The position numbers and the translations under genes were made by a program. This document shows positions 54,255-59,250 of a DNA stretch of 64,000 nt, piece after piece. The number at the start of each line of letters is the position of its first letter. Position 1 is the first letter of the stretch. Source of the stretch: Piscirickettsiaceae bacterium CG07_land_8_20_14_0_80_44_28 (lineage in GTDB: Bacteria; Pseudomonadota; Gammaproteobacteria; Thiomicrospirales; Thiomicrospiraceae); assembly GCA_002779995.1 (NCBI GenBank), contig PEWX01000092.1, positions 1-64,000 on the forward strand. The letters run 5' to 3'. The notes below the pieces were generated by a model, which was not told the origin of the DNA, ran no database searches, and worked only from the letters and a program-made list of their open reading frames with translations.

Positions 54255-55250
54255 ATGACACTATCTCGAAGACAATTTATCAGTCGTTCTTTTGGAACCT
54301 GCTTTTTGTCTGGTTTAGCAATGTTCGGATTAAGCGGTTGCAGCGAGCCAAATCTTGTTCGAATAGGTTCTCACCCCTGGCTAGGCTATGAGTTTCTGCA
54401 CCTAGGCCATCGTTTAGGTCAATTACCCAAACACATTCACTTTACCGAATATCGTTCCGCCAGTGAAATTCTATCGGCTCTGTCAAAAAAAGAAATTGAT
54501 GTTGCAACACTCAGTTTGGATGAGGTATTGATTGCTCGCGCCAGAGGCATCCCTATGACGGTCATTATGATTTTTGACATTTCTGCCGGTGCGGATATGG
54601 TGTTAGCGCCCCATCACACCAAAAAATTAACAGAACTGGCCGGGATGCGAATTGGCTATGAAGCAACGGCGCACGGGCAACTCATCTTGCATAAATTACT
54701 GGAAGCGGCGCATTTAACGCTTGATGACATTTCCGCCGTGGCGGTGGCGCCCTACCAACAATATGACGCCTGGAAAAGCGATCAGATTGATATCGCGATT
54801 TCTTATGAACCCTATGCGCATCCATTCTTAGCAGAAGGCTTTAAGGTGATTTTTGACAGCCGCCAACTGCCAAACATGAACTATGATGTGCTTGCGGTAA
54901 CAACCGACAAGCTATCAACACTGAGCAATTCCTTAACAGATTTAACCACAACCCACTTTAAGATGTTAAAATCGTTCCAATCTAATCCCAGTGACATGTT
55001 GTATGAAATGACCAATACCATCCACAACCGATTCCCGATTGACGTTATGAAAAGCGGACTCAGAGGCATCGCATTGCCCACTTTAGAAAGAAATCATGCC
55101 ATTTTATCCGACCGAGAGACCTTAAAAACCATTGTAAAAGGATTAATGCCCTATACCGGGGTTTCGGCAGATCAGCTTCCGCGTGACCTAGATCAACTGT
55201 TTACAAACCAATTTCTACCCAAAAATAGCCCCAATGCTGCATATTATTAA
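54255..55250 (+). CDS. ABC-type NitT/TauT-family substrate-binding lipoprotein, Tat-type signal
   Basis: SRRQFISRSFGTCFLSGLAMFGLSGC (twin-arginine plus lipobox), GSHPWLGYEFLHLGHRLGQL. Confidence 0.82.
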   Translation: MTLSRRQFISRSFGTCFLSGLAMFGLSGCSEPNLVRIGSHPWLGYEFLHLGHRLGQLPKHIHFTEYRSASEILSALSKKEIDVATLSLDEVLIARARGIPMTVIMIFDISAGADMVLAPHHTKKLTELAGMRIGYEATAHGQLILHKLLEAAHLTLDDISAVAVAPYQQYDAWKSDQIDIAISYEPYAHPFLAEGFKVIFDSRQLPNMNYDVLAVTTDKLSTLSNSLTDLTTTHFKMLKSFQSNPSDMLYEMTNTIHNRFPIDVMKSGLRGIALPTLERNHAILSDRETLKTIVKGLMPYTGVSADQLPRDLDQLFTNQFLPKNSPNAAYY

Positions 55251-58200
55251 CCCTCTTTTGATCATCCGACTCCGTTTTCTGATCCTCTTCAGTTTACTGT
55301 GCTTTGGCAATGCACAAGCGGATCATGCAAAAACCTCATTAAATCTGGCTGTTTTCGCACATTCCAATACTGAAACCACTTTAGCGCGTTATCAACCGCT
55401 AGCGGATTACTTGAGCGAAAATTTGCCAAATCACACGATTAAACTCTATGCAATGGGTGATTCCGCTCTCAGAACCGTTGTTCAGCATAACCAAATTGAT
55501 TTGGTTCTGGCCAACCCATCCCTCTATCAAATCATTCGCCATGAAAATGCCTTAAACAATGCAATTGCCACCATGCAAACCGCTTATCAAGGAAAAAGGT
55601 TAAATAGCTTTGGCGGGGTTATTTTCAGCTTGGCAACCAGAGAGGATATTCAAACCCTAAACGACTTGGCGAAACAAACCATTGCCATCCCCTCTTTTCG
55701 AAGCTCAGGTGCCTTTAGCATGCCGATGGCAGAAATTGCCAAACACACGGAACTGCGACAAACAGACTTAAACTTCCTCACGATTCACGATAATGAACGG
55801 GTGATTAAAGCGGTATTATCGAAAAAAGCAGATGTCGGCTTTGTCCGCACTGGTATCCTTGAACAATGGATTAAAGAAGGTAAATTGTCGGGTTCTGAAA
55901 TCAAAATCATTCACGCCCGCAACCTGTTTAACTATCCTTTTAAGCTATCAACAACACTTTATCCGGAATGGCCTTTTGTGGTACTCAGTCATATTGATGA
56001 AGCCACCACCAAGCAAGTTGCATTAGCGCTATACAATTTACCCGCGGATCATCCCGCCGCTATCGCTGCGCAGATCGCCGGGTTTATTCCACCGTTGGAC
56101 TATTTACCCTACGAAAAAATTTTACGCGACCTTCAGATTGAACCCTATCATATCCCCCCCCAATTCAGCCTGAAACAATTTTGGCAGCAATACACCGCCG
56201 ATATTCTTTTGATCGGCATCCTCATTATCATCTTGGCCATCAGCTTACTCAGAGCCCTTTACTTGCATCAACGCTTATCCAACTCCATGCAGCTTGTGCA
56301 ACGGCATGAAAAGGTACTGAGTGAAAAAGCCGCTTTAGACGAAATTTTACTGGCCTTGCCGCTGCAAGCGTCGAAACTGGATGAAGAAGCTTTTATTCAA
56401 AACGCGCTGGATGAAATTGAATCCCATATCACCAGTCAAATCGGTTTTGTTTACCTGGTCAATCATTCTTCGCAGACATTTGAACTCATTACCCATTCAA
56501 GCCAAACCCTTCGTAACCAACGACAACAAAATATCGTTTCGCACTACCGGTTTGCAGATGCCGGTATTGAAAAACAAGTGTTAGAGACCGAAAAACCGAT
56601 CATCATCAATCAGGTTTCGCAAACCCCTAATGAGATTGGCTTATTGAATAAAATGCATCAGTTAAACCGGCTCCTTATCGTACCGGTGATGGGCAAAGAT
56701 CGAGTGGAAATGCTGTTTGCGCTTGCCAATAAACCCTCAGATTATACCCAAGAAAATGTCCATGCACTTCAGCTACTGGCCAATGAAGTTTGGCGACTCA
56801 TTCAGCAACAGCATGCCAATCAAAAAATTATCAAACAACAACATCAATATGAACGCTTGGTGGATGAAATTGGTGAAAACTACTGTCTATACAGCTTAAA
56901 CGCGCAAGGTATCATCACCTATATCAGTGACAGCGCCGTGGGAATTTTTGAAATCCCGGTTGATCAAATATTAAACCAGCCCTGGCATTCGGTCATTCAA
57001 TGCTTGCCGGAAGACCAAGCTACTGTTGAAGCCAATATTCAAAATCTGCTTCAAAAGCGGCAGGTAAAAAACGAATTCAGCTTCCGTTTCAATTCGCCTT
57101 CAGCGAAACGTAAAACCCTGAAACTGATTCAACATGCCACCCTCGACAAAGCCGGTCGACTAATTTCGATTGATGGCCTGATTGAAAATATTACCGAACA
57201 AACTGAAACTGAAAATGAACTGCGCCAAGCTGCCAGCGTGTTTACCCATGCACAAGAAGCCATCTTAATTACCGATCCAAATGGTGTCATTCTGAATGTC
57301 AATCAAGCCTTTGAACAGATTACCGGCTACAAAAAAACCGAAGCGCTCGGCAATACGCCCAAACTGTTGAACTCCGGCAAACAAGACAAAAGTTTTTATG
57401 AAAAAATGTGGCGTCAACTGATTGAAGAGGGCAGGTGGTCTGGAGAAATTTGGAACAAACGAAAAGATGGTCGTATCTACCCGGAGAAACTGACCATTAG
57501 TGCTATCTATAATCAAGACGATACCATCAAAAATTATATTGCCCTCTTTTCGGATATTACCGTTGAAAAAGAACAGCGCAGCCAACTTGAGCTGATTGCA
57601 CACTACGATATGCTCACCGGACTACCCAATCGATTACTGTTTGCAGATCGCCTCAATCAAGCGATTGCCAGCGCCAAGCGGCATGATACCTCCATTGCCG
57701 TGCTGTTTATTGACCTGGATGGCTTTAAAGCCGTTAATGATCAGCACGGCCATCAGGCGGGTGATTACTTGCTGAAAACCATTGCTCAACGCTTTAGGAG
57801 TGCCATCCGTGACGAAGACAGCATCTCGCGCTATGGTGGAGATGAATTTGTGGCAGTGATTCTAAATGCCGACCAACTGAAAACCCTAACGCCCTTATTG
57901 CAGCGATTTTTAGATCACGCCAATCAACCGATTGTCTATAACGACATGACCTTTAGTGTCTCTGCCAGTATTGGTGTGACTTTTTTCCACCCCCATCAAG
58001 ACATGGATGCCGAGCAGGTGATTCGCCAAGCCGACCAAGCCATGTATCAAGCCAAAATGCGCGGCAAAAACCAAACCTATGTATTTGATGCGTCGCAAAC
58101 AGATCAAGCCGCCAGCGCTGAAATCATTGAACTTAAGCAAGCCCTTGCTGAAAATGAACTCAAACTATACTACCAGCCAAAAGTCAACTTAAAAACAGGT

Positions 58201-59250
58201 AAACTTTATGGATTGGAAGCGCTGATCCGTTGGCAACATCCACAAAAAGGACTGTTACAGCCAGCTGCATTTGTACACCTATTTCAAAACCCGTTCATTG
58301 CTTTTGATGCAGGATTTTGGGTCATTGAAGCGGCGTTAAAACAAATGCAAGCCTGGCATGAACAAGGCAAAGTACTCCCTGTCAGCGTTAATATTGATGG
58401 CATGTTATTGCTTGATCACCGTTTTTCCAACCATTTACAGAAATCATTAGCTAAATACCATCAAATTCCGCCCAGTTTATTAACTTTTGAGATATTAGAA
58501 ACCTCAGCCATTGAAGACATTGTGAGCACAACCAATGTTATGAAACGGTGTACGGCGATGGGGATTCAGTTCTCGATTGATGATTTTGGAACCGGCTATG
58601 CCTCGCTAACCTATCTCAAGACCCTGCCGGTTCATGAACTCAAAGCGGATTTGAGTTTTGTCAAAGACTTGCAAACCGATCCGCAAAGCCTGTCCATTAT
58701 GGAAAGTATTATTGGCATGGGTAAAGCCTTTAACCTGAATGTGGTTGCGGAAGGCGTAGAAACCGAATATGTTGCCAATCTGTTATTAAAGCTTGGCTAT
58801 GAATTAATACAAGGCTATGAAATCAGCCACCCCATGCCCGCTGATCAAGTATTTGAATGGTTACACCACTGGCACACTAAACCCCAATGGCAAAACATAA
58901 GACATGCCACTGAATATGAACGGGTTTTTATTACCGCAGCCATTGAACATCGCGCCTGGATTAATCAGATTGAATTTTACCTGACCAACCGCACCGATTG
59001 GCCACCTGAAATGGATGAAAAAAAATGTCGTTTTACACATTGGTTAGGCCACGATGAAGCCAAACAAAGGCTCACGAAATCTCAGCATCACCACATTCAA
59101 ACACTGCATTCACAAATTCACGCTATGGGACGACAGCTTATTACTCAAAAAACCGAAGGCAATTTGACCGCCGCGAGAGAGGGGCTTGAAAAACTCCATG
59201 CCCTAAAAGCTGAGTTGTTGGCCGCCATTGATTATGCAAACTTAAAATAG
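55234..59250 (+). CDS. PhnD-like periplasmic binding domain - TM - GAF - PAS - PAS - GGDEF - EAL - CZB protein
   Basis: 1338 aa; SBP-like N-terminus (LAVFAHSNTETTLARYQPLADYL), TM (ADILLIGILIIILAISLL), RDEDSISRYGGDEF (I-site plus GGDEF), EALIRW and DDFGTGYASL (EAL), C-terminal HRAW...CRFTHWLG...HHHIQTLHSQIH (CZB-like). Confidence 0.88.
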   Translation: MLHIINPLLIIRLRFLILFSLLCFGNAQADHAKTSLNLAVFAHSNTETTLARYQPLADYLSENLPNHTIKLYAMGDSALRTVVQHNQIDLVLANPSLYQIIRHENALNNAIATMQTAYQGKRLNSFGGVIFSLATREDIQTLNDLAKQTIAIPSFRSSGAFSMPMAEIAKHTELRQTDLNFLTIHDNERVIKAVLSKKADVGFVRTGILEQWIKEGKLSGSEIKIIHARNLFNYPFKLSTTLYPEWPFVVLSHIDEATTKQVALALYNLPADHPAAIAAQIAGFIPPLDYLPYEKILRDLQIEPYHIPPQFSLKQFWQQYTADILLIGILIIILAISLLRALYLHQRLSNSMQLVQRHEKVLSEKAALDEILLALPLQASKLDEEAFIQNALDEIESHITSQIGFVYLVNHSSQTFELITHSSQTLRNQRQQNIVSHYRFADAGIEKQVLETEKPIIINQVSQTPNEIGLLNKMHQLNRLLIVPVMGKDRVEMLFALANKPSDYTQENVHALQLLANEVWRLIQQQHANQKIIKQQHQYERLVDEIGENYCLYSLNAQGIITYISDSAVGIFEIPVDQILNQPWHSVIQCLPEDQATVEANIQNLLQKRQVKNEFSFRFNSPSAKRKTLKLIQHATLDKAGRLISIDGLIENITEQTETENELRQAASVFTHAQEAILITDPNGVILNVNQAFEQITGYKKTEALGNTPKLLNSGKQDKSFYEKMWRQLIEEGRWSGEIWNKRKDGRIYPEKLTISAIYNQDDTIKNYIALFSDITVEKEQRSQLELIAHYDMLTGLPNRLLFADRLNQAIASAKRHDTSIAVLFIDLDGFKAVNDQHGHQAGDYLLKTIAQRFRSAIRDEDSISRYGGDEFVAVILNADQLKTLTPLLQRFLDHANQPIVYNDMTFSVSASIGVTFFHPHQDMDAEQVIRQADQAMYQAKMRGKNQTYVFDASQTDQAASAEIIELKQALAENELKLYYQPKVNLKTGKLYGLEALIRWQHPQKGLLQPAAFVHLFQNPFIAFDAGFWVIEAALKQMQAWHEQGKVLPVSVNIDGMLLLDHRFSNHLQKSLAKYHQIPPSLLTFEILETSAIEDIVSTTNVMKRCTAMGIQFSIDDFGTGYASLTYLKTLPVHELKADLSFVKDLQTDPQSLSIMESIIGMGKAFNLNVVAEGVETEYVANLLLKLGYELIQGYEISHPMPADQVFEWLHHWHTKPQWQNIRHATEYERVFITAAIEHRAWINQIEFYLTNRTDWPPEMDEKKCRFTHWLGHDEAKQRLTKSQHHHIQTLHSQIHAMGRQLITQKTEGNLTAAREGLEKLHALKAELLAAIDYANLK

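Follow-up and report, generated by a model that had tools for sequence, protein, structure and literature searches.

Substrate-binding proteins (SBPs) are usual partners of ABC importers, and a gene for a binding lipoprotein (SBP1) that overlaps a receptor gene with an SBP domain of its own (SBP2) raises the question of whether SBP1 feeds the cell or informs it. The pair lies in the window, by which we mean the whole 64,000-nucleotide stretch analyzed, on contig C65 of a 2.28-Mb genome (G000). The two ORFs and the 17-bp overlap described in the original prediction were recovered from the sequence, and the features of the locus are collected in Table 1.

Table 1. Features of the SBP1-receptor locus. 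Nucleotide positions are those of the window and residue numbers (aa) those of each protein.
Feature	Positions	Strand	Basis
SBP1 gene, 331 aa, NMT1/TauA-SsuA-fold binding lipoprotein	54255..55250	+	ORF list, Pfam, predicted fold
Twin-arginine pair, SRRQF, aa 5-6	54267..54272	+	Sequence; RR in 18 of 23 relatives (alignment A1)
Lipobox cysteine Cys29, motif LSGC	54339..54341	+	Sequence; invariant in alignment A1
SBP1 NMT1 core, aa 65-184	54447..54806	+	Pfam
Overlap of SBP1 and receptor genes, 17 bp	55234..55250	+	ORF coordinates; 4-bp overlap usual in relatives
Receptor gene, 1338 aa, SBP2-TM-GAF-PAS-PAS-GGDEF-EAL-CZB	55234..59250	+	ORF list, Pfam
SBP2 domain, PhnD/TtrS type, aa 39-288	55348..56097	+	Pfam, TtrS model NF040750, predicted fold
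Transmembrane (TM) helix, aa 324-342	56203..56259	+	Hydropathy; helix 321-344 in structure model
GAF domain, aa 382-524	56377..56805	+	Pfam
Second PAS domain, aa 671-775	57244..57558	+	Pfam; weaker PAS before it
GGDEF domain, aa 789-947; I-site RDED 859-862, GGDEF 868-872	57598..58074	+	Pfam, motif search
EAL domain, aa 966-1200, motif residues of active phosphodiesterases (PDEs)	58129..58833	+	Pfam, motif search
CZB domain, aa 1239-1303, H1239/C1265/H1292/H1296	58948..59142	+	Pfam, motif search

SBP1 matches the Pfam families NMT1 (2.6e-11) and NMT1_2 (2.4e-9), both above the gathering cut-off, and belongs to the NMT1/TauA-SsuA superfamily according to its PF09084 score (44.3 bits, cut-off 20.5) and its type II SBP fold. 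The AlphaFold model, built from relatives (pLDDT 89, pTM 0.83), has TauA as best PDB match, with a TM-score of 0.79 on the target. All named domains of the receptor score above their gathering cut-offs: Phosphonate-bd (1.8e-31), GAF_2, PAS in two stretches, GGDEF, EAL and CZB. The CZB domain reaches 34.1 bits against a cut-off of 29.4 and shows the three-His/one-Cys pattern, and H-C-HxxxH is kept in 12 of 13 CZB relatives. Hydropathy shows a single strong internal transmembrane segment. The SBP2 model, also built from relatives with AlphaFold (pLDDT 92, pTM 0.78), has its closest matches among binders of phosphite/phosphonate (PtxB, PhnD) and of arsenic (ArrX, AioX), with TM-scores of about 0.8 for PtxB, PhnD and ArrX. 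In profile searches, SBP2 resembles the N-terminal domain of TtrS (NF040750, 2.3e-17 in the window and 7.4e-43 in the relative L046); the receptor stays below the cut-off for the full-length TtrS kinase (62.7 against 750 bits), its output being GGDEF-EAL. Upstream of GGDEF, R859DED-SISRY-GGDEF places RxxD five residues ahead of the motif, a signature that predicts a product-inhibited diguanylate cyclase (DGC). The EAL domain contains EALIR and DDFGTGY and the whole set EAL, VN, E, DD, K, E and Q, so that PDE activity is likewise predicted, with residue roles as in RocR-type PDEs.

Domain searches and structure prediction thus upheld what had been proposed for both proteins: a NitT/TauT-like SBP with twin-arginine and lipobox signals (Pfam NMT1, TauA-fold model, SRRQF, LSGC), and a second ORF combining SBP, TM, GAF, PAS, GGDEF, EAL and CZB with intact motifs (Pfam above gathering, hydropathy, motif search). 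The neighboring genes encode a cytochrome b561, a PALP (TrpB-like) enzyme, an RsmJ-like methyltransferase, PdxH and a DUF188 protein; as originally noted, neither an ABC permease nor an ATPase gene adjoins the pair. The nearest matches of the window are found in Hydrogenovibrio (Gammaproteobacteria), a genus of chemolithoautotrophs, and the closest SBP1, of Hydrogenovibrio sp. SC-1, is 72% identical.

To follow the pair in relatives, 84,980 GTDB species genomes were scanned with SBP1 alone as query, and the best 80 loci were kept. The scan was seeded with a six-member alignment subset and two peptide patterns from Hydrogenovibrio-clade sequences. Partners were mapped by six-frame domain mapping (longest-ORF calling loses SBP1 in GC-rich loci) and loci were classed by domain position (classing by ORF start misses GC-rich partners). 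An SBP2-bearing receptor adjoins SBP1 in 72 of these best 80 loci: in 70, the gene directly downstream, on the same strand, starts with SBP2, and in two an SBP2 kinase lies directly upstream. Three more have another sensor after SBP1, and five show SBP1 without an adjoining receptor. Where the two genes are paired, the usual spacing is a 4-bp overlap. Within the family, SBP1 homologues occur in 33 of 63 genomes, and 26 of 40 have an SBP2 match directly behind them by coordinates. Nearly all of the closest 30 are paired (G042 and G021 by a separate analysis); the remainder are mostly distant, and most of them face another type of GGDEF-EAL or kinase receptor. Since most relatives retain the pair, it is not a chance arrangement. 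The co-occurrence of the genes was therefore confirmed, but the combination of two SBPs, originally thought unusual, is not: the window pair exemplifies a cassette of wide distribution, found in Gamma- and Betaproteobacteria, Hydrogenophilales and Desulfobulbales, and in one Myxococcota-labelled MAG.

The cytoplasmic part of this cassette varies. Assigned from phmmer matches to single queries, the outputs of the 72 SBP2-paired loci are DGC in 35, DGC-PDE in 16, histidine kinase in 17 (including the two upstream cases) and unclassed in four. CZB is present in nine of the 16 DGC-PDE loci, the only nine among the best 80, and is an add-on, not the core of the cassette. On a maximum likelihood tree of SBP1, obtained by a quick search and with many weak forks, output class changes 20 times among SBP2-paired rows, and c-di-GMP and kinase outputs interchange nine times, at least six of these being forced by well-supported branches. 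The exchange is also visible within the host genome, where a second pair on contig C71 has the receptor SBP2-TM-HisKA-HATPase-REC, a hybrid kinase in place of GGDEF-EAL. Across 42 non-redundant loci, SBP1 distances correlate with those of SBP2 (Spearman 0.65, partial 0.56 given GGDEF) and with those of GGDEF (0.43, partial 0.15 given SBP2), bearing in mind that co-inheritance of neighboring genes by itself raises tree agreement, and that adjacency and co-divergence are not proof of contact. SBP1 and SBP2 co-diverge more tightly with each other than either of them does with GGDEF. Tree switches and correlations together indicate that SBP1 and SBP2 move as a unit whereas the cytoplasmic part is swapped. 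As the pair is inherited jointly while its output changes, SBP1 and the neighboring sensor probably make up a detector of nutrient type, one that informs rather than feeds the cell.

Regarding the ligands, Glu106 and Asp205 of TauA hold the amine of taurine (PMC6906117), and in a profile alignment read by hand they align with Asp114 and Asp211 of SBP1. The pocket residues of SBP1 are invariant in alignment A1; none of the 36 SBP2-paired rows departs from Asp114, Asp211 or the DE of an LDE motif, and the two aspartates are also present in ABC-linked binders. The aligned conserved acids suggest an amine-bearing ligand for SBP1. The PDB sequence search returned only TauA/SsuA/nitrate-type and PtxB/PhnD/ArrX relatives, so homology gave no ligand. 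NCBIfam gave the nearest ABC-linked relatives sub-threshold or general SsuA-family names, with no substrate, and the gene neighborhoods gave no ligand hint, flanking genes differing between taxa. Because the relatives of SBP2 bind oxyanions, an oxyanion would be the obvious candidate to consider first for this domain, which may bind a ligand of its own.

We consider it likely that the two gene products form a single bipartite receptor, in which SBP1, a dedicated ligand-binding co-receptor, sets the c-di-GMP balance by docking on SBP2. Domain make-up, folds, intact motifs, gene coupling, pair conservation, output swapping and separation from ABC-linked relatives were computed; docking, ligand classes, direction of the effect and the role of CZB we infer as follows. 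SBP1 would be exported by the Tat pathway, anchored by lipid, and bind a small ligand in the periplasm, which probably has an amino group. Depending on ligand, SBP1 would then dock on the membrane protein translated with it, at the TtrS-type SBP2 domain, as a co-receptor and not as part of a transporter. The combined state of SBP1 and SBP2 would be relayed across the single TM helix and by GAF and PAS to GGDEF-EAL, shifting the balance between c-di-GMP synthesis and breakdown, and the C-terminal CZB could add a cytoplasmic zinc/oxidant input; in the CZB-containing DgcZ, zinc inhibits and hypochlorite relieves (PMC8846402). One point against this model is the Ser at lipobox position +2 of SBP1: under the E. 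coli Lol rule it would send the lipoprotein to the outer membrane, a location that fits poorly with the very short linker.

That SBP1 instead serves an ABC importer encoded elsewhere, its place beside the receptor being incidental, is very unlikely. Its NMT1 family would fit such a role, and so would public annotation, which labels such an SBP 'ABC transporter substrate-binding protein' even directly ahead of an EAL gene, as well as three Methylomicrobium-type loci with an ABC ATPase gene upstream of a lone SBP1; however, no permease stands beside SBP1 in the best 80 GTDB loci. A phylum search of 398 genomes (63 with an SBP1-profile match at 1e-40 or better) showed neither permease nor ATPase beside SBP1 in 41 loci above 175 bits, most of them viewed with 1.5-kb flanks. 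Permease and ATPase genes appear only with far relatives, directly behind six of the eight phylum loci examined at 174 bits or less, and with one homologue from the family search, L071; as the latter scores 213 bits, the SBP1 score is not a strict boundary between signalling and ABC-linked proteins. A tree of 67 representatives places the seven ABC-linked ones on one side of a branch with 100% support, and the other 60, signalling-linked, on the other side. The lipobox Cys follows the same division: 34 of 36 SBP2-paired and 21 of 24 other-sensor-paired proteins have it, against none of the seven ABC-linked ones. Furthermore, SBP1 falls below the NCBIfam cut-offs of importer SBP families (TIGR01728, 61.3 against 163.5; TIGR01729, 35.7 against 304). 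The first SBP is thus not consistently ABC-linked in relatives; close ones adjoin signalling receptors, and the original proposal of signalling rather than import is supported. The cassette suggests that many annotated ABC transporter SBPs are receptors.

Within signalling, SBP2 could sense alone, with SBP1 as a helper that captures or buffers ligand or restrains the receptor and does not report ligand to it. SBP2 receptors without an adjoining SBP1 account for 75 of 101 matches in the family, and in two Hydrogenovibrio genomes (L184, L185) a DGC gene occupies the expected place of SBP1, so SBP2 can work without SBP1 and the dependence runs one way; a strict need of SBP2 for SBP1 is ruled out. 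TtrS, too, is thought to sense tetrathionate with the Phosphonate-bd domain that it carries itself, and no additional SBP is reported for it (PMC11293645). Nevertheless, we regard sensing by SBP2 alone as unlikely: the SBP1 pocket is invariant, and SBP1 homologues outside the SBP2 group adjoin receptors without SBP2 (HAMP-PAS-HK, HAMP-GGDEF-EAL), which argues for a signalling role of SBP1 independent of SBP2. These other partners mostly have a membrane-spanning N-terminus without a Pfam name, HAMP or PAS, and then a kinase or GGDEF-EAL. An SBP1 that has lost ligand binding and persists as a structural subunit of the receptor would agree with the variation of some non-SBP2-paired relatives at pocket positions, but hardly with the invariance of Asp114, Asp211 and the DE of LDE in the SBP2-paired rows, and we give this very little credence.

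The bipartite receptor has counterparts among known systems. In NspS-MbaA (Vibrio cholerae, Sinorhizobium meliloti), likened here by description, a periplasmic SBP is coupled to a GGDEF-EAL receptor and not to import, and its bound state sets the DGC or PDE mode of that membrane protein (PMC8967002). The window shows the same layout, an SBP gene coupled to a GGDEF-EAL receptor without a transporter, and SBP1 could in principle set the DGC/PDE balance in the same way; here, however, the SBP is a TauA-fold lipoprotein, the receptor senses with a second, PhnD/TtrS-type SBP, and GAF, PAS and CZB are added. The XAC2383-XAC2382 pair of Xanthomonas citri also combines an SBP and a DGC gene, and the SBP2 model matches the XAC2383 structure (5ub3), of PhnD-like fold. 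A J Biol Chem study of 2018 reportedly describes that pair as a bipartite receptor-diguanylate cyclase with the PhnD-like SBP as the free partner; if so, that fold is fused into the receptor here and the free partner is TauA-like. AioX/ArrX-type SBPs, which signal with sensor kinases rather than transport, share the PhnD-like fold of SBP2, but theirs is a free protein with no TauA-like partner. The kinases TtrS (tetrathionate) and ThsS (thiosulfate) are related through the TtrS model, the PF12974 domain being the N-terminal sensor of TtrS (PMC11293645); TtrS as described has no second SBP, and its output is a kinase, whereas here outputs are mostly c-di-GMP enzymes. Two SBP-like domains also feed one c-di-GMP enzyme in CdgH (PMC5431781). 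The tandem periplasmic SBP domains of this V. cholerae DGC lie in one chain and are both of PBPb type, in contrast to one separate lipoprotein and two different families here. From the transport proteins TauA and SsuA, whose fold and profile it shares, SBP1 differs as a lipoprotein with an LDE motif, without permease or ATPase, below the family cut-offs and on a branch apart from ABC-linked relatives.

SBP-stimulated receptors are therefore already known, and novelty is judged against the open-access literature, in which no paper was found on NMT1 with a DGC, or on NMT1 with a histidine kinase and phosphonate binding. The broader reading, to which we give an even chance, is that a TauA-fold lipoprotein clade left transport and became a general signalling co-receptor, its largest branch joining a TtrS-type SBP as a two-ligand front end on DGCs, DGC-PDEs and kinases; one integrated nutrient signal would then be read out as c-di-GMP or phosphorylation. 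The cassette lends itself to testing: it has two SBPs and a paralogue in the same genome in which a kinase replaces the c-di-GMP output, and its dozens of hosts include many in culture (Marinobacter, Hydrogenovibrio, Dechloromonas, Oceanimonas). If docking is confirmed, a shared front end on different outputs would allow signal entry to be separated from readout.

Several loci show further arrangements. The C71 pair (L053:5585-9054) lies in a cluster of more hybrid kinases with REC and GGDEF parts, and contig C116 of G000 (L073:2341-5226) contains a third NMT1-like SBP, a distant one, whose gene directly precedes that of a TM-GGDEF-EAL protein lacking SBP2. The receptors at L184:2940-9279 and L185 are SBP2-GAF-PAS-GGDEF-EAL-CZB proteins with a membrane DGC gene directly upstream. 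At L090:4261-6957 and L116:4759-6957, both Methylomicrobium-type, a lone SBP1 follows an ABC ATPase gene, with no permease or receptor adjoining. The alphaproteobacterial Niveispirillum plasmid NZ_CP025614.1 (L253:5890-9291) carries an SBP annotated as belonging to an ABC transporter, with an EAL-domain gene immediately after it. L153, on a contig titled Flavobacteriaceae, has an SBP1 nested in Marinobacter and is probably a binning error, and L049:7264-8574 (= L121) shows an in-frame SBP1-GGDEF fusion, apparently by internal deletion relative to L041, that may be a MAG assembly chimera. A single SBP1 precedes two SBP2-GGDEF-EAL receptors in tandem at L062:7504-13910, and L198, L199, L200 and L201 are large clusters in which SBP2 receptors (kinase, GGDEF-EAL) alternate with hybrid kinases and REC-GGDEF proteins.
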